Positions 1,240 through 35,051 of a stretch of DNA of 64,000 nucleotides are shown here, piece by piece. The position numbers and the translations under genes are program-made. The stretch is from a virus, in the IMG/VR virus record IMGVR_UViG_3300040781_000091, positions 1-64,000 of that record, one strand, 5' to 3'. Positions within the stretch are counted from its first letter, which is position 1, and the number at the start of each line of letters is the position of its first letter. The notes beneath the pieces were generated by a model. It was given only the letters and a program-made list of their open reading frames with translations. It ran no database searches and was not told the DNA's origin.

Positions 1240-1267
1240 ATTATAACACCATTGTTATAAATGTCAA
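1240..1267 (-). promoter_or_regulatory. Sigma70-type promoter for nadV
   Basis: Minus strand TTGACA (1267-1262), 16-bp spacer, TATAAT (1245-1240), with GTGT just before the -10. It overlaps the end of the purA-like gene and leaves a leader of about 55 bases before nadV. Confidence 0.75.
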
Positions 1268-2391
1268 CTATTTCTTGCTGGGCCAAACGTAGTGGTTATA
1301 TCGTCTGTACCGACAGCATCTGCCACTCTATGGGCAATTTTAGAATAGTTGGCGCCGCATAGTGTGTCTTGGTCGCAGTGAGTTAACACTGCTTTCTTTT
1401 TGTAATCAAACCATGTAAAATACGCCTCGTCGACCATTACATCTCGCTTCATACGCTCGTAATCGAGTGGAGCATATCTTAACGTTTCTTGGAATTCATT
1501 CGGAACGTTTGTATCGTCCTTGAATCCGGGATTAGGCACCTCACCAGGCAACGGCCCGGCGCCGTGTCGAGTTAGGTAGGTTCGAGTAACATAATGAACA
1601 TTAATGTCGGCCTCTGTGCCCTCTAGAAGCATAGCTGGATTTTCTAAGCCAGTACTCGATCGTGTTACAAACGGAAAGTCCTCGCTACGTTGCCCGATAC
1701 GCAAGCCTTGCGCTCCTTCCATTACTATGTTAGTGAATGCAGACATAGCAACCGTGTCTTCCTTCACACCCACATTCATAATAAAGTCAGTAGCATCGCG
1801 TTGAAATATTTCCTGAGCATCTGCAAGAACGGTCAGATTAGGATCTATGCTTAATTCTTCTAACCTCTCCGGCAAATAATTGTTTTCGATCTCTTTGAGC
1901 TTCCAGATCATCTCTTCGGTTTCTTGTAAATCTGCTACAGTAAGAGAATAGCCTCTCTCATGTCGTTCGATTGTTTCGCCTATACCTAAACCACAGCTAC
2001 CGTGTCGTTCTTTTCCTCGGGCACGTTCTATGGCCTGATTAATGAACACATCGTACGGTGTAGTAACAGGACAGTTAGGATCGACGTAGACCCTGGGGAG
2101 ACCGGCTGACAATTTTCCGTACAGATCGAGTGCCTCTCTCCAGAACATAATCGGATTTACTATAAAGAAGCGACTCAGAATAGTTGGAAAACTATCGATG
2201 GTGCCGGCACCGAAGTGATGAAACACATGCCGTCTGCCGTCTGGGAGAACAACAGTGTGTCCTGCTTGGGCGCCACCGTTAAATCTCACAACAGCAGTTC
2301 CTTTGCCTCGTTCGTGTGCTAACCTCTCGGTAGTTGCACCCTTACCTTCGTCGCCGTAGTTAAGTCCGATTACGATATCTACGTTCTGCAT
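1264..2391 (-). CDS. purA: Adenylosuccinate synthetase-like protein (PurA/PurZ family)
   Basis: PurA joins IMP and aspartate using GTP to form adenylosuccinate, the committed step to AMP. Visible motifs are the N-terminal phosphate loop NYGDEGKG (residues ~11-18), FNGGAQAGHTVV, HHFGAGTI and the late TRHGAGPLPGE. At 375 residues it is shorter than the ~430-residue bacterial enzyme and closer to compact archaeal and phage forms. The second lysine of the usual GDEGKGK is replaced by alanine. The aspartate of GDEGKG, reported as replaced in the phage diaminopurine enzyme PurZ, is retained, so PurA-like activity is more likely. PurZ activity cannot be excluded by eye. The SD is AAGAGGAATAGG before the ATG. 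Confidence 0.85.
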   Translation of the reverse strand: MQNVDIVIGLNYGDEGKGATTERLAHERGKGTAVVRFNGGAQAGHTVVLPDGRRHVFHHFGAGTIDSFPTILSRFFIVNPIMFWREALDLYGKLSAGLPRVYVDPNCPVTTPYDVFINQAIERARGKERHGSCGLGIGETIERHERGYSLTVADLQETEEMIWKLKEIENNYLPERLEELSIDPNLTVLADAQEIFQRDATDFIMNVGVKEDTVAMSAFTNIVMEGAQGLRIGQRSEDFPFVTRSSTGLENPAMLLEGTEADINVHYVTRTYLTRHGAGPLPGEVPNPGFKDDTNVPNEFQETLRYAPLDYERMKRDVMVDEAYFTWFDYKKKAVLTHCDQDTLCGANYSKIAHRVADAVGTDDITTTFGPARNS

Positions 2392-5326: not shown

Positions 5327-5849
5327 CGTCATACTCCATTTGTTCGGTTTCGACATCGTTGTAGATAACGTTGCCGTCCTCGTCGTATAGCGTGTCGTTG
5401 TCTACACCCATATTCTGTAACTGTTTGAACAGCTCGTCAACTGTCTGGCCTTCGTCGGCGAGCCCAAAGTCAATTACAGCATTTCCAGGTAAAGAAAAGT
5501 CACCGATCTTCCTTAATTCTCGTAGGATGTGAACATGACATGCACAGTTGTACAAATGACGATCACGATCAGTATCTAACTTTTCAATATCGCCGATGTA
5601 TGGGCCGGACACCATTAGGGCAATAAATGCCAGTGTTGACGGCAATGTAAAAACATCGAGGTGCATAGGATTGTAAACGGAAACCTTGTCAATGTGGTTG
5701 TAAGCAATCGGCCCCCAATAGTCAGTGTCTTCGACAAATTCCATATACGGGAGGACATCGAACTTGCCGGGGTATTGCTCACACAGTTTAACAATCGCTT
5801 TGTCGATTGCATCTTGGTCGATCGGTTTTGTGGGATCTGTTTGTTCCAT
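5319..5849 (-). CDS. Hypothetical acidic protein
   Basis: A 176-residue protein with a helical middle region (STLAFIALMVSGPYIGDIE) and a very acidic C-terminal tail (TLYDEDGNVIYNDVE). Its ATG overlaps the stop codon of the NMN adenylyltransferase/Nudix gene, so translation is likely coupled. Function not recognised. Confidence 0.6.
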   Translation of the reverse strand: MEQTDPTKPIDQDAIDKAIVKLCEQYPGKFDVLPYMEFVEDTDYWGPIAYNHIDKVSVYNPMHLDVFTLPSTLAFIALMVSGPYIGDIEKLDTDRDRHLYNCACHVHILRELRKIGDFSLPGNAVIDFGLADEGQTVDELFKQLQNMGVDNDTLYDEDGNVIYNDVETEQMEYDDE

Positions 5850-6928
5850 TACTTTGCCCTCGCAGTTAACATAGAAATAATGCTGTGATGATCTTCGAAC
5901 AGCTGGTCGCTCATCTCAAGTGCCTCGCTCACCGGAAACCACTTTGCTGCCTCGGCGTCGTCCATCCCTTTTACCTTCGGCAGTTTGCCATCGGGTGGAC
6001 CGGGCAACTCGATAAGAAACGCATTGGTGATAGTTCGCCCTCGCAGGCTACGGTCGGGGTGATCGAAAACCTGCTGATGAGTAATATTTGCCTCGAGCAC
6101 AGGTACCGGCACCTTTACCGCTGTCTCTTCTTTAAGCTCACGGATCATGCCCTGGCGATGCGTTTCTTTCTGATTAAGATACCCGCCGGGCAGAGCCCAT
6201 AGTCCTTTTCCTGGTGCAGACTTGCGCTTAATTAAAAGCACATGGCCGCCCTGAAGAAGAACAGCATCAACCGTACAGAAAGTAACCGGATAGGGTGCAG
6301 CTCTCCATTGCTCTTTGTAACGTTGGATGAAGTTGTACTCTTCGAGTGTATGCTCGAACTCCGGGGAACCGAAGTAGTGCTCAGTCATCCATTGATTTGT
6401 CGGTTCGTGCAGTGCGCCGGCCACAAGTCGATACTGACGATTAAACATCAGGGTGCGTATTTGAGTAGCATCAATTGGGCGCTCGCCCATTTCGACGAAC
6501 TTGTCAGCGTTAACGAAATCGTAGGAAGGAAACCACTTCAGGTAGTAGGTAGTGTGGTCTTTATCGTGACCGACCAAACAGACTTTTGCACCGGTACCGT
6601 GCAGACCCATTTGGTGACAGTTGTCCTGGATGGTCTGTTGCACCTGCTTGATCCACTTGTTATCTTCGTAAAAGTAATCGCGCAGAGGAGCAAACCACAA
6701 CCTTTGATCGGTGTCGTCCTCGAAGTATTGGGGAAGTGCGTTAGTGATCATTTCTTCGCGTTCTTCGTATGTGAAGGGATTGCGAGGATCACGGGCCTGG
6801 AATGCGCTGCCAATTAACACCAAAACATTATCTGCTTGTCTAAATGCTTCGGTAATTAAGGCGTCGTGGCCCAAGTGAAAGGGTTGGAATCGTCCGATGA
6901 CGACGGCAAGTTCATATTTCTTTGGCAT
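5849..6928 (-). CDS. nadM: Bifunctional NMN adenylyltransferase / Nudix hydrolase
   Basis: A 359-residue fusion. Residues 1-~190 are a nucleotidyltransferase of the NadM type that adenylates NMN to NAD: GRFQPFHLGH (12-21), GSAFQARDPRNPFT near 40-53. Residues ~215-355 are a Nudix hydrolase with the box starting at G249 (E255, R263, E264, E267, E268); its usual last glycine is alanine (A270). The longer frame starts at a TTG inside the ribosome site; the ATG at 6928 fits GAGGAG. It completes NAD salvage with nadV and shares that gene's RBS hairpin. The Nudix half may hydrolyse ADP-ribose or another nucleotide (inference from related fusions). Confidence 0.93.
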   Translation of the reverse strand: MPKKYELAVVIGRFQPFHLGHDALITEAFRQADNVLVLIGSAFQARDPRNPFTYEEREEMITNALPQYFEDDTDQRLWFAPLRDYFYEDNKWIKQVQQTIQDNCHQMGLHGTGAKVCLVGHDKDHTTYYLKWFPSYDFVNADKFVEMGERPIDATQIRTLMFNRQYRLVAGALHEPTNQWMTEHYFGSPEFEHTLEEYNFIQRYKEQWRAAPYPVTFCTVDAVLLQGGHVLLIKRKSAPGKGLWALPGGYLNQKETHRQGMIRELKEETAVKVPVPVLEANITHQQVFDHPDRSLRGRTITNAFLIELPGPPDGKLPKVKGMDDAEAAKWFPVSEALEMSDQLFEDHHSIISMLTARAK

Positions 6929-6946
6929 TATTGAGCTCCTCAATAA
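6929..6946 (-). promoter_or_regulatory. RBS hairpin of nadM
   Basis: Minus strand TATTGAG-GAG-CTCAATA immediately before ATG: a 7-bp stem, 8 if the A of ATG is paired. GAGGAG lies in the arm and loop. The outer pair is T-A here and A-T in the nadV copy (1179-1195), which supports pairing. Confidence 0.6.
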
Positions 6947-9212: not shown

Positions 9213-10448
9213 TTACCCCTTTACACACACAACCTGTTTGAGCGTATGAACAATCTCAACTAGGTCTTCTTGCGCCTTCATTACGGCATCGATATCCTTA
9301 TATGCCTTTGGAGACTCGTCGATTACACCGATGTCCTTACGACACTCGACACCCGCCGTTGACTTCTCGTGGTCGTCTAGTGTAAGAACACGCTTCGCTT
9401 CCGAGCGCGACATAACTCGTCCTGCGCCGTGAGAACACGAGCAGAAAGAATCTGCATTACCGAGGCCACGCACAATAAAGGACTTCGCACCCATAGATCC
9501 AGGAATAATGCCAAGGTCTCCTACGCGAGCCCGAACTGCACCCTTGCGAGTAACATGTACGTTAGCACCAAAGTGGTGCTCGGTCGACACATAATTGTGA
9601 TGACAGTTGATCGCCTCTTGGGTGATTGTAAACGCTGGCAACGTAGAGCGCAATGCTGTCAACACCAGTTCCATCATGACCACACGGTTGTGCATCGCAT
9701 AACCCTGGGCCCACTCGACTGCTTCTACATAGTTCTCGTATTGCTCCGAACCATCTACTAAGTATGACAAATCACGGTCAGGCAAAGAAATAAAGTGTCG
9801 CTCCATTTCCTTCTTAGCAGTTGCAATAAAGTGGCGGCCGATCATATTACCTGGGCCACGAGAACCCGAGTGCAATACAACCCATACGTCGTTGTTCTCG
9901 TCTAAGCACAATTCGATGAAATGGTTACCTCCACCCAACGAACCTATTTGGCGATACAACTTTGCGTCTGGCTCTTTTGCAAGCGTTTCGATCACCGGAG
10001 ATTTCGCGACGATACGCTCCCAGCCTCGACGTAAGTCTCGGTTAGCATTGTCTAGCAATTGTGTTGTGTTACGATGCGCTTTGTGAGACAACCGCTGCTC
10101 GTTATGCTCGTCTTGACCAACAGGGACCATACGCTCGATTTCATCACGCACAAGTGCCAGGGACTCTGGCAAGTCTTCTGCAGTCAACGACAATCTAACA
10201 GCATTCATTCCGCAGCCGATATCAACACCAACTGCTGCTGGTATGATAGCGCCTTTGGTTGCAATTACAGAGCCTACCGTTGCGCCGAGTCCTAAGTGGA
10301 CGTCAGGCATTACTGCAACGTGCTGATGTATAAACGGCATAGATGCAATATTCCGCAACTGATCGAGAGCCTGGGATTCCACAGGGACTCCACGTGTCCA
10401 CATTTTGATTAGTGCGTTGTTTGATTTTACTACATCATAGTTTGCCAT
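9213..10448 (-). CDS. rtcB: RtcB-type RNA ligase
   Basis: A 411-residue GTP-dependent ligase that joins RNA ends carrying 2',3'-cyclic or 3'-phosphate to 5'-OH ends, as produced by tRNA-cutting toxins. Metal-site residues are seen in VGVDIGCGM (D76, C79), GGGNHFIEL (~173-181), HSGSRG and CHHNYVS, and the guanylylated histidine is in SHGAGR (H340). The length matches the bacterial enzyme (~408). It heads an operon driven by a strong sigma70-type promoter at 10478-10506. In a phage it could repair tRNAs cut by host anticodon nucleases (inference). Confidence 0.95.
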   Translation of the reverse strand: MANYDVVKSNNALIKMWTRGVPVESQALDQLRNIASMPFIHQHVAVMPDVHLGLGATVGSVIATKGAIIPAAVGVDIGCGMNAVRLSLTAEDLPESLALVRDEIERMVPVGQDEHNEQRLSHKAHRNTTQLLDNANRDLRRGWERIVAKSPVIETLAKEPDAKLYRQIGSLGGGNHFIELCLDENNDVWVVLHSGSRGPGNMIGRHFIATAKKEMERHFISLPDRDLSYLVDGSEQYENYVEAVEWAQGYAMHNRVVMMELVLTALRSTLPAFTITQEAINCHHNYVSTEHHFGANVHVTRKGAVRARVGDLGIIPGSMGAKSFIVRGLGNADSFCSCSHGAGRVMSRSEAKRVLTLDDHEKSTAGVECRKDIGVIDESPKAYKDIDAVMKAQEDLVEIVHTLKQVVCVKG

Positions 10449-10532: not shown

Positions 10533-10967
10533 TCAGATGTCGCCGTCTTCTCTTACTTCGGAATGGAAAACATTGAATTCTCCCATGGGATAACGGGTCT
10601 CAAGTTTCTTGATATTCTCGATAATAATTGTCACCGGGTCCATACCGAGCGCAATACATGCATTCATCCAATACCAAATAACATCACCTAGCTCACGCTT
10701 CATGTGGTATACGTTGTCGAAGTTATATGGCTTGCCTTGGAAAAATATCTTCTTAACAATTTCGTTAAACTCGCCGCCTTCTGCGCTAAGTCCGTATCCA
10801 GCAGTAAGTAACCTTGCAGGATCTCCACCTAGCTCGTCTACTGCACGAATACGTGCAATAAATGCTTCGGTGTCTTTGCTTTCTTTGGAAGTTACTCCGT
10901 CTACAAATTTCATGTAGTTATTTAGAAACTCTCTTGCCTGTTGTTCCATTTCAGTTTTTTGTTCCAT
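10533..10967 (-). CDS. mazG: MazG-like nucleoside triphosphate pyrophosphohydrolase
   Basis: A 144-residue all-alpha NTP-PPase. The signature is GLSAEGGEFNEIVKK (metal-binding ExxE) followed about 20 residues later by ELGDVIWYW (ExxD). These enzymes cut (d)NTPs to (d)NMP and pyrophosphate. Phage forms may adjust nucleotide pools, remove unwanted dNTPs or alter (p)ppGpp. GAGGGA lies 8 bases before the ATG. It overlaps the Skp-like gene by 17 bases. Confidence 0.85.
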   Translation of the reverse strand: MEQKTEMEQQAREFLNNYMKFVDGVTSKESKDTEAFIARIRAVDELGGDPARLLTAGYGLSAEGGEFNEIVKKIFFQGKPYNFDNVYHMKRELGDVIWYWMNACIALGMDPVTIIIENIKKLETRYPMGEFNVFHSEVREDGDI

Positions 10968-11487
10968 TTAACATTCCCTCATTATAGTTATTATCCATTA
11001 CGTCTAATACTTGTTGCGTAATATCAGAGCCGTCATTGTAAAGTATATTTTCTGCGTTATCGTCTACTGTAATTACAAGACTGAGCTTATTGCGTTTCAT
11101 GACTACCTTAATCGCATAATCTATGTCCTCGCGAATGGCATCTAGTCTAGTTTGATAGTCGGCGTGTATTCTTGAGAAATATTTTTCTCTTTCTTTTAAA
11201 AATCGAAGGCGTAACTTTTCGAATTCTTTTTCTTTTTCTTCTCTAACATTGTCCGGCATCGGTTTAGTGAGTTCCTCTGACAGTGCAATTAATACTCGGG
11301 CAGATGCGTCTAACATATTTGCCGCTGCCTTTTGTTGAGCCTCAATTGGAGTAAGAAGCGCCTGTCCCGCCCATGAATCTTCTACTAATATTTGAGTATT
11401 CACAACTGCGATATTATCAGCATGTGCTAAAGCACCTACTAATAATATTAGTACAAGTGCTAAATTAAAGGTTCGCATAATCTTCAT
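10951..11487 (-). CDS. Skp/OmpH-family periplasmic chaperone-like protein
   Basis: A 178-residue protein with a clear signal peptide: basic MKIMRTFN, a hydrophobic core (LALVLILLVGALA) and a likely cut at AHA/D (23/24). The mature part begins IAVVNTQ, then has a long charged coiled coil (EKEKEFEKLRLRFLKE) and ends VITVDDNAENILYNDGSDITQQVLDVM. This is the Skp layout, where beta strands at both ends flank a long helical hairpin. Skp trimers hold unfolded outer-membrane proteins in the periplasm. The start could also be the ATG three codons later. Confidence 0.75.
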   Translation of the reverse strand: MKIMRTFNLALVLILLVGALAHADNIAVVNTQILVEDSWAGQALLTPIEAQQKAAANMLDASARVLIALSEELTKPMPDNVREEKEKEFEKLRLRFLKEREKYFSRIHADYQTRLDAIREDIDYAIKVVMKRNKLSLVITVDDNAENILYNDGSDITQQVLDVMDNNYNEGMLNGTKN

Positions 11488-12385
11488 CGCTAAACTCTTC
11501 TCCGTTCCATTCGTCGCATTCCAGTTCCCTGGCTTCGGCGATATCGATAATCATACTAGCAAGTAATTGGTGTGCTCTCGTGTCGCCTTCTTGTCCGGCG
11601 TATCCTGGTATTTGCCACTGGCGGTGTGTTTGCTGCATGAATGAATTTAGTACCTCCATCTGTATTGCATTTTCTACAATAGGATATACTTGTTCCTCGG
11701 TTCCTCCCATCTCAATTGCTGCTTTAATAATCACACGAGCATCCATGACACCACAGCTCTTGTTATACATGTTATCGCACAGAGCTAACGAAATGTGATT
11801 ATCGCGGTCGGGATTGTTTCCGAGTGGGTCAGTCCAACGTTTTAAAATATCGTCCGACTCTAGCGATTCTTTCGCCTTTCTATAAAATACCGGATAATCG
11901 TCTATTATGTCTGCAAACGTAGGCTGGTCGCCGTAAGATCCTTCCTTCCACCAGCATGTTAAATGATTTTCCATGATAGTGTCGAACACATCGCGACGAA
12001 CTTGGAGGTGTTTGATTGGAGTTATAATTTTCTTTTGGCCTACAGAAATTTCCGATTTAAGTCGGTCTTGTCTATCGGCAAGCATGATGCTGTCCCAGGT
12101 AAAACTTTCCGGAACTACTTCGTTTTCGTGGTATTGGTTTTCGCCGGCTTCTACTGGCAAACAACGACTAGACAGAGTAGAAATTATAACAGCGAGCATA
12201 GTTCCGCGTTCGTTTTCTACCTGTCCATAATCGTCGTATCTTCCTTCGCTATAAAAAGGAAATGGGGTTAGATATTTGCGCGGATCTTCGTTGCCCGGTA
12301 CTTCGCTTGTAAAGAATGTAACAACTTCGGTGCCAGCAGTAATTGGCAAATTCGATACTGCACATGTTTGATTCCAACTGCCCAT
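11465..12385 (-). CDS. Conserved phage protein of unknown function (GSWNxTC type)
   Basis: A 306-residue protein. The start MGSWNQTCAVSNLPI is chosen because a longer frame would overlap the upstream gene deeply. The N-terminal pattern (GSWN-TC-SNLPI--G) recurs, to my recollection, in hypothetical proteins of several large phages. The middle and end are helical, with an acidic C-terminus (DEWNGEEFSDEDY). No catalytic site was recognised. Confidence 0.6.
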   Translation of the reverse strand: MGSWNQTCAVSNLPITAGTEVVTFFTSEVPGNEDPRKYLTPFPFYSEGRYDDYGQVENERGTMLAVIISTLSSRCLPVEAGENQYHENEVVPESFTWDSIMLADRQDRLKSEISVGQKKIITPIKHLQVRRDVFDTIMENHLTCWWKEGSYGDQPTFADIIDDYPVFYRKAKESLESDDILKRWTDPLGNNPDRDNHISLALCDNMYNKSCGVMDARVIIKAAIEMGGTEEQVYPIVENAIQMEVLNSFMQQTHRQWQIPGYAGQEGDTRAHQLLASMIIDIAEARELECDEWNGEEFSDEDYANL

Positions 12386-14104: not shown

Positions 14105-14698
14105 CTATCGAGTAAGTTGTACGCTATCTGCCAAACCCTTTTCTACTGTTTCTTGTGCATTCAGCCAGTAGTCTCGATCTAACATAGTAACCATATCTGC
14201 TCGTGTTATAGACGGGTTAGTACAATGCTCCATATAGAGATCCGTTAATTCCTCTTTGAGGCGCAGACCTTCTTTTAGATCAATTTCCATGTCTGTAATT
14301 TTACCACTAGTGCCCCAGCTAGGCTGATGAATCATCATTCTAGCTCTCGGTAGTATGTAACGATGTCCTTTTTCTCCGCCACTCGACAAAAACGAACCCA
14401 TAGAACATGCCTGACCAATTACGTAAGTATGCACCGGACATTTGATGTACCGCATTACGTCATAAATTGCCATGCCAGCAGTAACAGATCCGCCGGGGGA
14501 GTTAATATAGAAATTAACAGGTCGGACCGGGTCTTCTGCTTCTAAAAACAGCAATGATGCAACAATACGATCTGCTTTGTGATCGACAACTTCTCCCGTT
14601 AGGAAAATAAGGCGCTCCTTCAGCAAACGACTATAAATATCAAAAGAGCGTTCGCCCTTTGAAGTTTGCTCAATTACTACTGGTGTTAAATCACTCAT
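14105..14698 (-). CDS. clpP: ATP-dependent Clp protease proteolytic subunit
   Basis: A 197-residue serine peptidase that forms the barrel of the Clp protease. Catalytic residues are S99 in [11 protein letters not shown]124 in MMIHQP and probably D176 in LDRDYWLNA; the Ser-His spacing of 25 equals E. coli. [10 protein letters not shown] supplies the oxyanion-hole region. No long propeptide is visible. The SD is AAGGA. The matching ATPase (28217-29446) and adaptor ClpS (27005-27331) are elsewhere in the window, so the phage can build its own ClpXP. Confidence 0.95.
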
Positions 14699-21622: not shown

Positions 21623-21906
21623 TAGTGTATTACCCTCGCAATTTCGTATCCGAGATCAGCAAACAACTCTGAATTCTGTTCATATATCTCTAGGGCCTGC
21701 ATCAACGATTCGTTATCGTCTGGGTCAAACTCAGGAAGAATAATAACCCGAACAATATCATATCCTGCAAACACATCGTCAAAAATTTCAGATCGACTGT
21801 GTTGTGATCCCCGAGGAACAAAGACAGCAATAAAATCATCAAAGCTAATTTTGTCGTCTGCGGGTATAAGGACACAGTTTTCATCAAAAGTAATTATATC
21901 GTTCAT
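21622..21906 (-). CDS. Hypothetical acidic protein
   Basis: A 94-residue acidic alpha/beta protein (DDFIAVFVPRGSQHSRSEIFD; EFDPDDNESLMQALE). It is coupled to ftsH by an ATGA overlap. Function unknown; an FtsH adaptor is conceivable from position alone. Confidence 0.5.
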   Translation of the reverse strand: MNDIITFDENCVLIPADDKISFDDFIAVFVPRGSQHSRSEIFDDVFAGYDIVRVIILPEFDPDDNESLMQALEIYEQNSELFADLGYEIARVIH

Positions 21907-23684
21907 TTCTCATCCATAATCTGCGAAATAATATCTTCGCCGATTGTTTCGTGTTCAATTAGTGCTGCGGCCATGGCGTCTAATTTGTCACGATTAGCCT
22001 CTAGTATTCTCGTCGCTTGCTTGTAATTTTTCTCCAAAATTTCAGCAATTTGTGACTCGACTTGACCCAAGGTTATACTTGATAGCACACTAGATCCTAC
22101 TTTATCTAATTTACTAAAATTCATGACACCTAGTTCGCTGAATCCCCATTCGGTTACCATCTTACGCGCAATCTCAGTTGCCCTAGCAATATCACTGCTC
22201 GCGCCGGTGGTAACTTTATTAGAACCATACTTCAGCTCTTCTGCAATGCGCCCTCCGAACAAGGAGCAGATAGAACTGTTTAGATATTCGAGGCTATGAC
22301 TGTAGCGTTCCTCTTCTGGTAAAAATTGCGTCACACCCAGGGCGCGGCCCCGGGGAATGATACTGACCTTGTAAACAGGATCATGGTCCGGTGAGAGCCT
22401 ACCGACGATAGCATGACCGGCTTCGTGGTAAGCAGTTTGCTCTAGATCTAGTGGCTTCATTTCCTTAGGACTTTCAGCACCCATCATTACCTTATCCTTA
22501 GACCTTTCTAAATCGGATATAGTAACCTCTGACCGCTGTTCACGTGCAACAAAAATTGCAGCTTCGTTGATTAGCTTTTTAAGTTCGGCGCCGGAGAAGC
22601 CGGGTGTTCCTTTTGCAATTTGCTGCACATCTACAAGGCTAACATCTCGGTTAATTTTCTGAAGGTGTAAATTGAGAATCTTTTCTCTGGCCTGTACGTC
22701 TGGTAGGCTAATATTAATAATACGATCAAATCTACCAGGACGCATCAATGCAGGATCAAGTACATCGGGTCGGTTAGTTGCAGCAATTACCAACACCCCA
22801 TGATCATCTTCGAATCCATCCATCTCTACAAGGAGCTGGTTAAGAGTTTGATCTTGTTCGCGTCCAGAGCCGCTAGCAGCATCTCCGCGAGATCTTCCTA
22901 GGGCATCGATCTCGTCGATAAAAATGATAGAAGGTGCTACCGACTTGGCCTGGGTGAATAAGCTACGCACCCTGCCGGCACCTACACCCACAAACATCTC
23001 AACAAATTCAGACCCAGATACTTCAAAAAACGGAACGCCGGCTTCGCCTGCAATTGCTCTTGCTAGTAGTGTCTTACCGGTTCCCGGCTCTCCGGCTAAT
23101 AGTATTCCTTTAGGAAATTCTGCTTTTGCTTTACGGTAGTCCTCGGGTCTTTTTAGAAAGTCAATTACTTCCTTTGCTTCGTCGTGTTCGCCGGGGTTTG
23201 AAATTACATCGCTAAGGCGTGTTTTATTCTTCTCTGGGTCAATTAAACGGGCTTTTGTCTTTCCGAAGCTAAGAATGCCGTCGCCGTTTTTCTTACCTAA
23301 CCGGACAATAAAGAACACTAGTATAAGCACAGGAATTACACCGAACATTAGCATCCCGAACCAACCAATTGGCTGTGGCGGCAGTTCTGCATTTACTAAT
23401 GCACCGTGAGAAATCGCCTTGTCTACTATATACGCAGGGTCGCCTGCAGACACGGTACGGTATAATTCGGAGTTACCTTTTAGAGTATAAACAATTGTCC
23501 GTTCGTCTGACTCGATGTCAATTTCGTCAACCAACTGAACATTAGTAACGAGGTGCGAATAAGGAGAATTGTTGTAGTCCGGGCCGAAGAACAATGGTTT
23601 GATAATAAACAACCAAGCTAGGCCGCCGATGGCACATAACCAAACTATACCCACAAGGCCATTGCGTGTTTTTGATTCACTCAT
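21903..23684 (-). CDS. ftsH: FtsH membrane AAA+ zinc protease
   Basis: A complete 593-residue FtsH. Two membrane helices (~12-30 and ~108-128) flank a short outer domain. The AAA+ module has Walker A GEPGTGKT (198-205), pore segment [14 protein letters not shown], Walker B IIFIDEID (253-260) and [20 protein letters not shown]. The peptidase has HEAGH (H420, H424) and the probable third zinc ligand D498 in SSDIARAT. It extracts and degrades membrane and soluble proteins. Phage FtsH could remove host membrane or photosystem/respiratory proteins, or regulators; the target is unknown. Confidence 0.97.
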
Positions 23685-27004: not shown

Positions 27005-27331
27005 CTATATCTTTTCGTATGTTACTTGGAGGGGGTATCCAGAAGTTCTTGCGAGTCTAATAGCTTCTTCGGTTTTTTCTTCTGCAATCTCTCTAGTATA
27101 TATTCCAGCAATGCCTCTTCCTTTGTGGTGTATCGAGAGTGTTATTTCCGCGGCTTCTTCTAGGTCCTTATGAAATACCATTTGCAATAATGTAATAACA
27201 AAATCTACAGTAGTCTTGTCATCGTTGTGAAGTACTACTCGGAACATATTGGGTTCCTGAGTTTTCTGTTTTTCTTTTTCTTTTTCTATGGACGAAATCT
27301 TTTCTAAGATGTCGAAATCTGTAGTTGCCAT
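27005..27331 (-). CDS. clpS: ClpS-type N-degron adaptor
   Basis: A 108-residue protein with a charged N-terminal extension and the ClpS core: FRVVLHNDDKTTVDFVITLL, HHKGRGIAGIYTREIAEEK and a final SGYPLQVTYEK. ClpS brings proteins with bulky N-terminal residues to the Clp ATPase. NDD and the IAGIYTREIAE segment correspond to the substrate pocket and fold core. Host ClpS works with ClpA; here the phage supplies ClpX and ClpP, so its partner is open. It has its own strong promoter with flanking inverted repeats. Confidence 0.9.
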   Translation of the reverse strand: MATTDFDILEKISSIEKEKEKQKTQEPNMFRVVLHNDDKTTVDFVITLLQMVFHKDLEEAAEITLSIHHKGRGIAGIYTREIAEEKTEEAIRLARTSGYPLQVTYEKI

Positions 27332-27421: not shown

Positions 27422-27889
27422 TTAACTATTACCTAATGAAGGTGTACTGTTAATTTCGATTAACTTAGGCTTGGCAGCCTCGGGGATCTCTTGTTCGAGA
27501 ACAATAGTTAAGATACCGTCTTCGAGCTCTGCGCCAGTAACTTCCATATATTCAGCAAGAGTCCAGCTTAACTTAAAGGAGCGCTCTGAAATTCCCTTGT
27601 GGTGGTATTTGAGTTCTGTTCCTTCTGGCGGTGGCGTCTTCTTGCCGGAGATGGTAAGTTTACCCTGATGTTGTTCAATTTCAATTTCGGATTTTTTAAA
27701 CCCTGCAACTGCAATCTCCAGAGAAATTACGCCGTCTTGATTTTTAACGACATTATACGGAGGATAGTTTGAAGTACTAGCATTGGTCCAGCGATTTTCG
27801 ATATCGTGGAAGATATTATCATATCCTAATGCTACGCGGTTTAAGTTATCGAATAAATTTGAGATGTTAGAGGTTCTAATGCTTGTCAT
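27422..27889 (-). CDS. Small heat-shock protein (Hsp20, IbpA-like)
   Basis: A 155-residue alpha-crystallin-type chaperone. An N-terminal region with IRTSNISNLFDNLNRVA is followed by the crystallin core (YNVVKNQDGVISLEIAVAG, then GKLTISGKK) and ERSFKLSWTL. It continues with the typical A-x-L-x-D/E-G-I-L-T-I-x-L (AELEDGILTIVL) and ends with a short PKLIEI tail like the IXI motif. It holds unfolded proteins, perhaps virion proteins, in soluble oligomers. A late promoter with a 5' hairpin precedes it. Confidence 0.93.
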   Translation of the reverse strand: MTSIRTSNISNLFDNLNRVALGYDNIFHDIENRWTNASTSNYPPYNVVKNQDGVISLEIAVAGFKKSEIEIEQHQGKLTISGKKTPPPEGTELKYHHKGISERSFKLSWTLAEYMEVTGAELEDGILTIVLEQEIPEAAKPKLIEINSTPSLGNS

Positions 27890-27999: not shown

Positions 28000-28233
28000 T
28001 TACGCCTGGGTCGGCGCGTTCATTTGCTCTAGCTTCTTGAGCCAACGCTTGCGCGCCATTTTCTTCTTTCGTTGCTTCTTCTCGGAAGGTGGCTCATAAT
28101 ACATGCGATCTCTTACTTCTTTTAAGATGCCTGCTTCTTGAACCTTTTTTCCGAATAGTCTAAGTGCTTTGTTAAAGTCACGATCAACTGTAACTGACAA
28201 ACCAGATGGTCTGCTATTATGCCGTCTTGCCAT
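28000..28233 (-). CDS. rpsU: Ribosomal protein bS21 homologue
   Basis: A 77-residue, very basic protein. SVTVDRDFNKALRLFGKKV, EAGILKEVRDRMYYEPPSEK and a Lys/Arg-rich tail (KKQRKKKMARKRWLKK) follow the bS21 pattern closely. bS21 sits on the 30S subunit near the anti-Shine-Dalgarno end and affects mRNA selection. A phage copy may replace the host protein and bias ribosomes to phage messages (inference). It overlaps the end of clpX by 17 bases. Confidence 0.92.
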   Translation of the reverse strand: MARRHNSRPSGLSVTVDRDFNKALRLFGKKVQEAGILKEVRDRMYYEPPSEKKQRKKKMARKRWLKKLEQMNAPTQA

Positions 28234-29446
28234 TTTTGTTTACCTGTTTTGATTTTCTTTTGTAAATGTATTTAGGTGTACCCGTTGGATCTACAACAAT
28301 TTTATTTACTCCGGCCTTAGCAAGGTCTGGCAAATTAAACTGTGTCTCTTGTAGAGTCTTTTCAATTATAGCCCGAAGTCCCCGAGCTCCGGTTTTCTTC
28401 TCTAGGCTACTATGTGCAACTCCGTGTATGTACTTATCGTCGAACTCTAGTCGAACACCGTCCAAACTGAACAACTGCTTGAACTGCTGTATGATGTTGT
28501 TCTTTGGTTCGGTTAAAATTTGAACTAACATTTCTTCTGTGAGGTCTCCTAATGTAACTACAACAGGAAAACGGCCAACAAACTCGGGTATAAGCCCGTA
28601 GTGTATAATATCTTGTGGAGACACATCGTGTAACAGCCCTATGTCGGCTGTCTTATCTTGTATAGATGCATTAATACCAATTGACGTAGCTGACTTACCC
28701 TTTCTGATAATTTTGTCTAGTCCGATGAATGCTCCACTAGCAACAAACAAAACATTCGTAGTGTCGAAATCAAACGACTCTGACGAATTTCGACGACTCA
28801 TTTTAATAGTAGTGCCTTCTACTAATTTCAAGAGTGCTTGCTGCACACCCTCCCCTGATACATCACGCGATAAGGTAGAACTTTCGCTACGACGAGATAT
28901 CTTATCGATTTCGTCTATAAAGATTATTCCTCTCTGCGCTTTTTCAATATCATAGTCGGCTTTTTCTAAGAGCATCTCGATTAAATTTTCAACATCGTCG
29001 CCAACATAGCCGGATTCGGTGAGTGTGGTCGCATCGGCAATTACACACGGAGCATCGAATATCGTAGCAACAGTCTTGACAAGTAATGTCTTACCGGAAC
29101 CACTCGGACCGATCATTAACAGATTAGATTTATCAATCTCAATATCCGATGTGTCGAATACACGTTTATAATGATTATATACTGCTACACTTATTGCATA
29201 TTTGGCATCCTCCTGACCGATCACATACTTGTCTAGGTGTGCCTTAATTTCTTTCGGAGTAAATGAAACTTCGTACTCGTCGTCGACTGTTTCGTCGTTG
29301 TCGGTTTCGTGAATAACATCGTAGCTGAAATCTACGCACTGATCACATATATAAATTGTAGACCCTGCAAACTCGGGCCCGGCAATCATTTGTTTGACTC
29401 TGCTTCGTGTTTTGTTACAAAATGAACAGCGTATAGCTTTTGCCAC
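28217..29446 (-). CDS. clpX: ClpX AAA+ unfoldase
   Basis: A 409-residue ClpX with a GTG start. N-terminal zinc domain: C7, C10, C34, C37. Walker A GPSGSGKT (113-120), pore loop GYVG (146-149), Walker B IIFIDE (174-179). Two functional loops differ from E. coli: the ClpP-docking IGF is IGI (256-258), and the RKH substrate loop is replaced by a sequence MSRRNSSESFDFD without RKH. It should unfold substrates for ClpP but may choose different ones. It lies two bases downstream of the membrane-protein gene and is coupled to bS21. Confidence 0.96.
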   Translation of the reverse strand: MAKAIRCSFCNKTRSRVKQMIAGPEFAGSTIYICDQCVDFSYDVIHETDNDETVDDEYEVSFTPKEIKAHLDKYVIGQEDAKYAISVAVYNHYKRVFDTSDIEIDKSNLLMIGPSGSGKTLLVKTVATIFDAPCVIADATTLTESGYVGDDVENLIEMLLEKADYDIEKAQRGIIFIDEIDKISRRSESSTLSRDVSGEGVQQALLKLVEGTTIKMSRRNSSESFDFDTTNVLFVASGAFIGLDKIIRKGKSATSIGINASIQDKTADIGLLHDVSPQDIIHYGLIPEFVGRFPVVVTLGDLTEEMLVQILTEPKNNIIQQFKQLFSLDGVRLEFDDKYIHGVAHSSLEKKTGARGLRAIIEKTLQETQFNLPDLAKAGVNKIVVDPTGTPKYIYKRKSKQVNKNGKTA

Positions 29447-29448
29447 AA

Positions 29449-30921
29449 TTAATCCCTCTTATTCCTTATCCAATTCGGTGACCTGACTTTGTCTGGTTCT
29501 ATGCCGTCTTTTATTTTTGCGCTCGGTGGTAGTATCGGTGTTTTATCTTTATTACCGTCCCCTTCTTGTATCTCAGCTGATATGGTTTTGCTCTTACCAC
29601 TATCCGTTTTCCCAGCAGAGCTCCGAGCTTTTTTATCTTTCGCTTTCGTCGTAGTCTTTTTCTGAACACCCTTGTCTTCAATTATTCTCTCTTTACCATC
29701 AACGGGGTGTTTGCGTCGCGCGGGAGCCAGCACGGAGTCAGTTTGTTTTTCTTGTATCTCCGATGGTATGGTTTGGATGGCTCCTGGATTAATTTTTCGA
29801 TCCACCGTCGAATTTCTACGAGATGTTTGTGTTTTTCTTTTTTTGTTAGACGTCCCATTTATTTGCTCGACAGGTACCACGTCTTGCCGTTTCTCGTTCC
29901 GAAGTAAATTGTCTCCCCTTTCCGATACCTCAGCTGATACTGCATAGCCAGCGGCAAGGGACAGACACGCATCTTTTTCTCGATTACTCTTTTTTTGTGC
30001 TGGCGCCGCGATTTTTTCATCTAATAATATCTCGTGTTGCGGGACTTCGTTCGATAGTTCATCACATAGGGTGGTGGCATGCGTGAGGTTACTGTTGGGT
30101 ACTTCCATAACCTTAGGGTCGGCAGTTGCTTCTGTACCGACTTTGGGTTCTTCCACGGCACGTTTTTCTTTTTCATTTCTTGCCCTTAGTAACGACTGGT
30201 TTGCCGCTATTAACAGTAATACAGCAAGTGGGTCAAATACAATCACTAAAATTAATATCACCCAGCGAACAGCATCATCTAATTTATCAGAGGAATCGTC
30301 GTAGATTAACTCTGCAACATACCGAATTGGCCCGACCTCAAGTTCTACCTCCCTTACTGCCGAGCTTAATTCGAATTTTTCGTCTTCTAGTTTGTCTATA
30401 GTTTTTTGCGCTGCATCCACTATAGTCCTTAAAGACTGTCGTTCTTCGTTTTGCGATTTACGTATAGCAATAGCACCGGTACTGCCGCTTATCTTTTCAA
30501 ACTTGATAAGTGTATTTACTGCTTCGTCTAGTTGCGCTACTACTTTTTCGGCATCTTCGATTTCTCGTTGTTCACGTGCTATTCGAAGATCAATTCTTTC
30601 TATCTTCGCAATGTTATTTCCAACTGGACTAGCTTGATCTAGGTGTGCTTTCGATAAGAATCCAAAAATACCCATGCTTGTAATAAACATTAGTATTATA
30701 ACTGATATTGTTAGATATGTTTTTAATAAGAATCCGGTGGTTTTCCAGTTCCGGTACAGCCAGCTAGCTGTTACTAGTTTGCCAACTTCTAATACTGACC
30801 CCATTATTAGTATAGGAATAGTTGATGCCGAAAATATCGACATCAGCCCAATAATTGAAAACCACGCTGCGGTACTAGCAATTGCTAATGCAGTTAATAG
30901 TGTTATTAATGTAAAGAACAT
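29449..30921 (-). CDS. Four-helix membrane protein with coiled coil and long basic tail
   Basis: A 490-residue protein. Three hydrophobic helices (~2-28, ~34-52, ~66-90) contain MGSVLEVGKLVTASWLYRN. Then come a charged coiled coil (~105-195), the segment VGPIRYVAELIY, and a fourth helix (VFDPLAVLLLIAANQ, ~220-242). The last ~245 residues are Lys/Ser/Glu-rich and probably disordered. I recall related proteins in marine T4-like phages, with no known function. A perfect late promoter ends 4 bases before the ATG and there is no SD. Confidence 0.7.
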   Translation of the reverse strand: MFFTLITLLTALAIASTAAWFSIIGLMSIFSASTIPILIMGSVLEVGKLVTASWLYRNWKTTGFLLKTYLTISVIILMFITSMGIFGFLSKAHLDQASPVGNNIAKIERIDLRIAREQREIEDAEKVVAQLDEAVNTLIKFEKISGSTGAIAIRKSQNEERQSLRTIVDAAQKTIDKLEDEKFELSSAVREVELEVGPIRYVAELIYDDSSDKLDDAVRWVILILVIVFDPLAVLLLIAANQSLLRARNEKEKRAVEEPKVGTEATADPKVMEVPNSNLTHATTLCDELSNEVPQHEILLDEKIAAPAQKKSNREKDACLSLAAGYAVSAEVSERGDNLLRNEKRQDVVPVEQINGTSNKKRKTQTSRRNSTVDRKINPGAIQTIPSEIQEKQTDSVLAPARRKHPVDGKERIIEDKGVQKKTTTKAKDKKARSSAGKTDSGKSKTISAEIQEGDGNKDKTPILPPSAKIKDGIEPDKVRSPNWIRNKRD

Positions 30922-34082: not shown

Positions 34083-34537
34083 TTGCGGGACATACGTCTT
34101 TGTCTAATCACCGGCATTTTCTGTATGCCGCTGGCGGCATGCACCGCGGCCCATTTTTCTTCTAGTTCGGCGAGATGATCATCGACTTCATCCAGCGGCT
34201 CATCTTTTAGTTTAGCAAGTACTCGTTTTACTCTTAAATTTTTGCGGCGGATAGTATATGCTATCCCCCATATAATTCCAACAATAGCAGTTGCTGGCCA
34301 CACTAAAGACAGAATCAATATACTACCAGTGTACAGAAGTACATCCGCAAATATTCCTGCAGGATGACTTCCGGTATTAAATAACCTGCCGTCGAGGACT
34401 ATGTTTGAGTCATCGAAATCATCAATAGGAACACACGTAGCATATTGTTTCAGGAGTTTACAAATCCTAACTACAGCATGGCCAATTAAAATTACAAATA
34501 GAACCGCCATAAATATAATAGCACCAAATTCATACAT
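34079..34537 (-). CDS. Two-helix membrane protein, possible holin
   Basis: A 152-residue protein starting MYEFGAIIFMAVLFVILIG (first membrane helix, ~4-24). A second long hydrophobic segment lies at ~64-92 (SILILSLVWPATAIVGIIWG). The last ~60 residues are charged and helical. The gene overlaps the SleB-like hydrolase upstream and thyA downstream. Position beside a lysin and the two helices suggest a holin; sequence alone does not prove it. Confidence 0.5.
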   Translation of the reverse strand: MYEFGAIIFMAVLFVILIGHAVVRICKLLKQYATCVPIDDFDDSNIVLDGRLFNTGSHPAGIFADVLLYTGSILILSLVWPATAIVGIIWGIAYTIRRKNLRVKRVLAKLKDEPLDEVDDHLAELEEKWAAVHAASGIQKMPVIRQRRMSRK

Positions 34538-35051
34538 CGTCTTGCTTCCTCTTTTTGCGATAAAACTTATGATTACCGTATGTTGTGGTATGTTGCAATC
34601 TATTAATCCATCCTGGTTGTGCAATGTCAGTATTGACAAAATGTGTGGCGCCATCGGTGTTATCGGCTGCAATTTCTGCCATGGTCATAAGTGCAATTAC
34701 TGCTGCGGTTTCAAACGCAGACACTTCCTGCACTATCTCTTTATTGCCCCGATATAATTTTATTTCATTCGGAATGTCGTCGCAATACCAAGAAAACTGA
34801 CAAACGTATCCATTGTCTACTTTTTTAACCTGTCTGACAACATCACAAATTGTGTCAGGATATCTTTTAGAATCAACACGTTGCAATGTCGTGTGTGCTA
34901 CTGCAAATTGCCCAGCAACGGGCTCGCCCCTAGATTCATAATAAACATTCTTAGCAAGACAAAATGCCTCTTCGAGATCAATATTAGAGGCCTCGATGCC
35001 TAATGCATTGTTCTGCAAAATTGTCAGTAGTATGAGTTTAGCAGTAATCAT
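34530..35051 (-). CDS. Cell-wall hydrolase, SleB/CwlJ family (lysin candidate)
   Basis: A 173-residue protein. After a hydrophobic N-terminus (KLILLTILQ) that may act as a signal or anchor, it has CLAKNVYYESRGEP with the family glutamate, GQFAVAHTTLQRV, YPDTICDVVRQ and CQFSWYCD. SleB proteins cut peptidoglycan glycan strands. It is followed by a membrane protein, so the two may form the lysis module. A TATTAT element ends 6 bases before the ATG. Confidence 0.82.
   Translation of the reverse strand: MITAKLILLTILQNNALGIEASNIDLEEAFCLAKNVYYESRGEPVAGQFAVAHTTLQRVDSKRYPDTICDVVRQVKKVDNGYVCQFSWYCDDIPNEIKLYRGNKEIVQEVSAFETAAVIALMTMAEIAADNTDGATHFVNTDIAQPGWINRLQHTTTYGNHKFYRKKRKQDDV

Follow-up and report, generated by a model that had tools for sequence, protein, structure and literature searches.

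We found that an intact open reading frame of 178 residues, exact in its limits, in a fragment of a phage genome almost certainly encodes a member of the OmpH/Skp family. The family itself is well known from bacteria, which send Skp into the space between their two membranes, where it works without ATP and where its usual clients are beta-barrel proteins; for a viral carrier we found no precedent. The gene, referred to here as skp, is truly phage-borne and lies in the first 64,000 bases (the window, i.e., the whole stretch of DNA that was analysed) of a virus record of 74,178 bases in total. Its position, the parts of its product and the genes discussed together with it are collected in Table 1.

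Table 1 Features of the phage skp gene, its product, its neighbours and the phage proteostasis genes. Positions refer to the window.
Feature	Position	Strand	Evidence or remark
skp/ompH gene of the phage, 178 aa	10951..11487	(-)	PF03938 61.7 bits; bacterial-only profile 82.4 bits
Signal peptide, residues 1-23, predicted cleavage between AHA and D	11419..11487	(-)	Sequence reading, hydropathy scan, alignment with chromosomal Skp signal peptides
First arm helix, residues 39-73	11269..11373	(-)	AlphaFold single-sequence model, mature protein
Second arm helix, residues 79-133	11089..11253	(-)	AlphaFold single-sequence model, mature protein
C-terminal core block LVITVDDNAENILYNDGSDITQQVL, residues 137-161	11005..11079	(-)	Alignments with E. 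coli and chromosomal Skps
Upstream neighbour, phrog_5960-type jumbo phage protein	11465..12499	(-)	Shares its last 23 bases with the start of skp
Downstream neighbour, MazG-like pyrophosphatase	10533..10967	(-)	Shares its first 17 bases with the end of skp
ClpP-type protease	14105..14698	(-)	PF00574 E=9.9e-67
FtsH-like membrane protease (AAA + M41), possible functional partner	21903..23684	(-)	
ClpS adaptor	27005..27331	(-)	PF02617 E=7.7e-30
Hsp20 small heat shock protein	27422..27889	(-)	phrog_432 E=8e-40
ClpX-type unfoldase with C4 zinc finger	28217..29446	(-)	

Family membership and layout of the phage protein

Pfam assigns the phage protein a single family, OmpH (PF03938; E=1.2e-16, 61.7 bits with a cut-off of 32.4, covering profile positions 1-139 of 141), while neither PHROGs nor NCBIfam returned a family matching it. 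This score stands at the low end of what eight chromosomal OmpH proteins obtained with the same Pfam model (62-101 bits). Because coiled-coil proteins can match one another spuriously, we built our own profile from 29 bacterial Skps, with the phage row left out, and scored shuffled sequences alongside. By this bacterial-only profile, the phage protein reached 82.4 bits versus 11.1 bits for the top-scoring of 1000 shuffled versions of the mature protein and 9.9 bits for the next-best ORF in the window, a short coiled coil, and this rules out a coiled-coil artefact. The core without its arms still obtained 25.6 bits. Together with the full-domain Pfam match, these scores bear out the Skp/OmpH identity that the first-pass annotation had proposed from the sequence. 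Chromosomal hits were mostly located between bamA and lpxD, so the search retrieved true Skps. Identities between the phage protein and bacterial Skps ranged from 14 to 26% in the multiple alignment, and the nearest chromosomal match among 398 Pseudomonadota genomes (L093) was 31% identical (E=1.5e-8, calculated for one genome).

The N-terminus, read from the sequence as MKIMRTFNLALVLILLVGALAHA followed by DN at the predicted cut, is composed of a basic n-region, a hydrophobic core and an A-X-A cleavage motif, and a hydropathy scan ranked it as the strongest N-terminal hydrophobic stretch of all ORFs in the window. The signal peptide noticed earlier is thereby upheld, as a sequence feature of the Sec type. 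The C-terminal core block corresponds to the conserved D.N...DIT..VL region of Skp. It includes the ILYNDGSDIT motif that had been taken as a Skp-type ending; the motif does belong to the conserved DIT..VL block, but it is not the end of the protein, as it spans residues 148-157 and is followed by 21 more.

Single-sequence AlphaFold models had a mean pLDDT of 62 for the mature protein and 53 when the signal peptide was kept. At this pLDDT of 62, the mature protein was modelled as a long helix, another long helix, two short strands and a helix, in that order, with the N-terminal core strand unformed. When the model was compared by Foldseek with 350,542 solved chains, the first four rows were all Skp/OmpH and the Skp structure 1sg2 came sixth; the best E of the search was 0.0087, and probabilities were 1.00 and 0.93 for two chains of the type 9 translocon SkpA (8gl8), 0.95 for Caulobacter OmpH (4kqt) and 0.85 for E. 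coli Skp (1u2m). VIA-align placed 8gl8, 1u2m, 1sg2 and 4kqt at the top (Z of 9.7-10.2, rmsd of 2.1-3.3 over ~101 residues), but neither the E values nor a Z of ~10 are decisive for helical hairpins. By analogy with its family, the phage protein would form a Skp-type trimer, be exported and bind clients.

Compared to E. coli Skp (HlpA/OmpH; 1SG2, 1U2M), to which it is 26% identical by global alignment, the phage protein has in common the signal peptide, the two arm helices (modelled in the phage protein), the sequence of a short N-terminal core strand (DNIAVVN versus DKIAIVN in E. coli) and the C-terminal VD.NA......DIT..VL block. Unlike the E. coli gene, the phage gene is phage-borne and lies outside the bamA-lpxD locus, and its product is acidic rather than basic (mature protein pI 4.75 and net charge -8, versus pI 9.5) and ~13 residues longer at the C-terminus. 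The clients of this acidic Skp may differ from those of E. coli Skp. Two chromosomal Skp homologues are equally acidic. Reversed charge at the arm tips was considered and dropped, as the phage arms fall within the range of chromosomal Skps.

Genomic setting and the phage

The skp gene overlaps the phage genes on both sides, and in place of bamA upstream and lpxD downstream its flanks are the phrog_5960 and MazG-like phage genes. It is therefore a family member outside the bamA-skp-lpxD orthologous locus, and not host DNA. The gene run of clpP, small genes, phrog_5960, mazG, rtcB and nmnat is common to another virus contig (L003), in which skp is absent and just 33 bases lie between phrog_5960 and mazG; no OmpH gene was found anywhere in this 97-kb record. 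A second contig matches the record over 6.8 kb at 99.8% identity, with 15 differences in all. It starts within skp and continues through mazG, so that the skp 3' end is followed by mazG there as well. Synteny with the collinear relative and the second contig reject a chimeric contig, and the earlier claim that the chaperone is phage-encoded stands.

At neighbouring junctions of the same run, the relative carries a deoxycytidylate-deaminase-like gene (L003 9358-9960) and an AAA ATPase gene (11329-12378). With these junctions filled by other genes, the skp-bearing run looks like a site of gene exchange. The run also includes, in the window, a nucleotidyltransferase-Nudix protein (phrog_395, 5849-6943 (-)) and an RtcB RNA ligase (9213-10448 (-)), which represent NAD and RNA repair functions.

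Genes of a large T4-like phage are present in the record, including ribonucleotide reductase, thymidylate synthase, DNA ligase, exonucleases, and baseplate and tail fibre proteins. The closest NrdA (65.5%) is that of the PA5oct group, Pseudomonas phages of 285 kb, and homologues of the phrog_5960 protein occur in the jumbo phages B23, GAP32 and CBB. From these relationships, the record probably represents part of the genome of a jumbo phage, allied to the PA5oct type, and most of that genome may be missing if it is as large as those of its relatives. The phage presumably infects Gram-negative bacteria. Besides NrdA, the PA5oct/MIJ3 jumbo phages have related FtsH (~42%) and ClpX (45%) proteins; they differ in that Skp was not found there by tblastn of phage records.

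A near-complete bacterial-type proteostasis set, consisting of ClpP, FtsH, ClpS, Hsp20 and ClpX, is encoded in this one phage, all on the minus strand, with the genes for ClpS, Hsp20 and ClpX side by side within 2.5 kb. Adjoining the ClpX gene is a gene for a protein of 490 aa (29449-30921 (-)) with several membrane segments, a sub-threshold tetraspanin match and no PHROG. Two peptidoglycan hydrolases were observed. One is a SleB-type protein (Hydrolase_2; 34530-35051 (-)) whose N-terminus is hydrophobic, and the other, a GH108 endolysin, is encoded in the part of the record beyond the window (L281 338-943 (-)). Another gene (1264-2391 (-)) encodes an adenylosuccinate synthetase homologue matching phrog_1211, which is annotated as a modified-base type; together with the MazG-like gene it could hint at 2-aminoadenine DNA, but the aspartate found in ordinary PurA is retained in its GDEGKG motif, so the hint is equivocal.

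Distribution among viruses and origin

No true Skp was returned when 50,697 phage records were searched by tblastn, whether the query was the phage protein, E. coli Skp or the family consensus, and a direct search of genome contigs, plasmids and phages returned no close relatives of the phage protein. OmpH over the cut-off was present in none of 50 virus records with related RtcB or MazG genes, and our Skp profile found nothing in 161 virus loci except the phage Skp itself. Pattern scans of IMG/VR recovered only the second contig of the same phage, which is weak evidence of absence since such scans need conserved 8-mers and Skp has few of them. A fold search of BFVD gave generic helical matches only, and text searches of the literature found no report of a phage-encoded Skp/OmpH. 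That such a gene is unusual for a phage, as the first-pass annotation had remarked, agrees with all of these searches.

Several candidate viral Skps were rejected, three of them phage records that E. coli Skp or the family consensus had hit. Of these, AFYI01000001 is deposited under the name of a Salmonella Infantis strain, and OR851534 spans just 1.7 kb and shares 90% identity with E. coli Skp. The third, MT835672, is an unverified faecal scaffold that carries the end of BamA, a pair of OmpH genes and genes resembling MurI and SusC (names by reading), and thus reads as Bacteroidota chromosome (MT835672.1 1-9000, our L280); filed as bacteriophage, it is a misfiled database entry. A sub-threshold OmpH match in G429 is a stretch within an 848-aa frame. 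The P. aeruginosa protein named 'ompH' in a phage-resistance paper is an efflux protein (TolC), not Skp.

In the tree, the phage Skp grouped weakly (86/62) with alphaproteobacterial and Rickettsiales-type OmpH proteins (L093, L088, L089 and Caulobacter CC_1914, whose structure 4KQT is also among the top fold matches of the phage model). It differs from them in its long branch, the longest end branch of the tree (1.62), which makes assignment of skp to a source lineage tentative. Codon use in skp is that of the phage, and its GC content is 0.369, versus 0.433 +/- 0.035 for the contig. Given the long branch and the phage-like codon use, the capture of skp was probably not recent.

Proposed role and rival readings

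Known Skp is a holdase whose trimer surrounds unfolded outer-membrane proteins and can route those that have stalled to degradation (PMC9820271). Jumbo phages encode host-like chaperones and unfoldases, namely HSP60, HSP10, ClpA, ClpX and BCS1 (PMC7824862), and the main text of this survey of 224 jumbo phages has no mention of the periplasm or of Skp/OmpH. Like the phage Skp, these proteins are viral copies of host quality-control proteins; unlike the phage Skp, which is predicted to be periplasmic, they work in the cytoplasm or on the inner membrane. In the description of MIJ3, host-like genes, FtsH among them, were noted as unusual, and the authors speculated that its FtsH sustains host viability while the phage replicates (PMC6892783).

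During infection, the host Sec machinery would export the phage Skp and the signal peptide would be removed, after which the mature protein would assemble into a Skp-type trimer and hold unfolded outer-membrane proteins, and perhaps other exported chains, in the periplasm without ATP. With host expression shut down by the phage, host Skp, SurA and DegP could not rise under envelope stress, and by supplying a periplasmic holdase of its own the phage would keep the cell intact until lysis. As the phage protein retains the core motifs, the same activity as in known Skp is expected, and holdase activity on unfolded outer-membrane proteins is likely. That envelope maintenance is its purpose is a tentative suggestion drawn from the genomic context. 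Since the same genome encodes ClpX, ClpP, ClpS, Hsp20 and FtsH, whose sites of action would be the cytoplasm and the inner membrane, Skp would add a periplasmic arm to them; an exported Skp-family holdase that maintains the infected envelope as part of this proteostasis set is thus the overall reading we favour, if cautiously. Related phages with RtcB and MazG are without Skp, so Skp is inessential to such a way of life. A bolder reading, which we regard as somewhat unlikely, is that a lytic jumbo phage runs quality control in three host compartments (ClpXP-ClpS-Hsp20 in the cytoplasm, FtsH at the inner membrane and Skp in the periplasm) and thereby takes over outer-membrane biogenesis during infection.

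The first-pass annotation had offered three purposes, namely superinfection exclusion by hindering the insertion of receptor proteins, protection of an exported phage protein and an influence on lysis, all of which are conjectural. Gene content favours a general part in envelope and protein quality control over receptor exclusion, in which the phage Skp would trap new receptor porins away from BAM, or direct them to DegP, so that fewer receptors are displayed and superinfection is prevented. Skp is able to divert stalled outer-membrane proteins to degradation (PMC9820271), the altered charge could point to different clients or to a modified hand-over, and skp is a lineage-specific insertion, as is frequent for exclusion genes. 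However, receptors already inserted in the membrane would remain, and the core motifs match those of working Skps with no trap features seen, which leaves exclusion unlikely. A dedicated chaperone for an exported protein of the phage itself, which might be an endolysin, a spanin or an outer-membrane protein whose gene lies elsewhere in the genome, seems improbable to us. The SleB-type hydrolase with its hydrophobic N-terminus and the GH108 endolysin are consistent with it, as is the probable absence of much of the genome from the record, but an N-terminal hydropathy scan of the window found neither a beta-barrel nor a clear Sec-secreted partner, skp lies apart from the lysis genes, and beta-barrels are the usual clients of Skp.

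The length of the end branch, the acidic pI and the C-terminal extension of ~13 residues would also agree with a Skp-derived protein that has taken on a new job, for example by binding a defence or stress protein or some other target in the periplasm; against this, the core motif and the whole-domain profile match are kept, and we consider such a change of function improbable. The view that the gene is not a phage gene at all, as a result of a chimeric contig or host contamination, or that its product is a coiled-coil look-alike, has been refuted in the main and is hardly credible. Viral relatives were not found in the searches and the GC content of skp is low, but the overlaps with phage genes on both sides, the collinear relative, the second contig with its few differences and the phage codon use all speak against a foreign gene, and the score of the shuffled sequences speaks against a look-alike.

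In the literature cited here, phage-encoded quality-control proteins belong to the cytoplasm or the inner membrane only, and a phage-borne Skp would show viral influence on the traffic of outer-membrane proteins. As a naturally divergent, acidic Skp, the phage protein is useful for studying client choice by the chaperone, and it offers a handle both on the envelope integrity of infected Gram-negative cells after host shut-off and on how phages tune receptor display.
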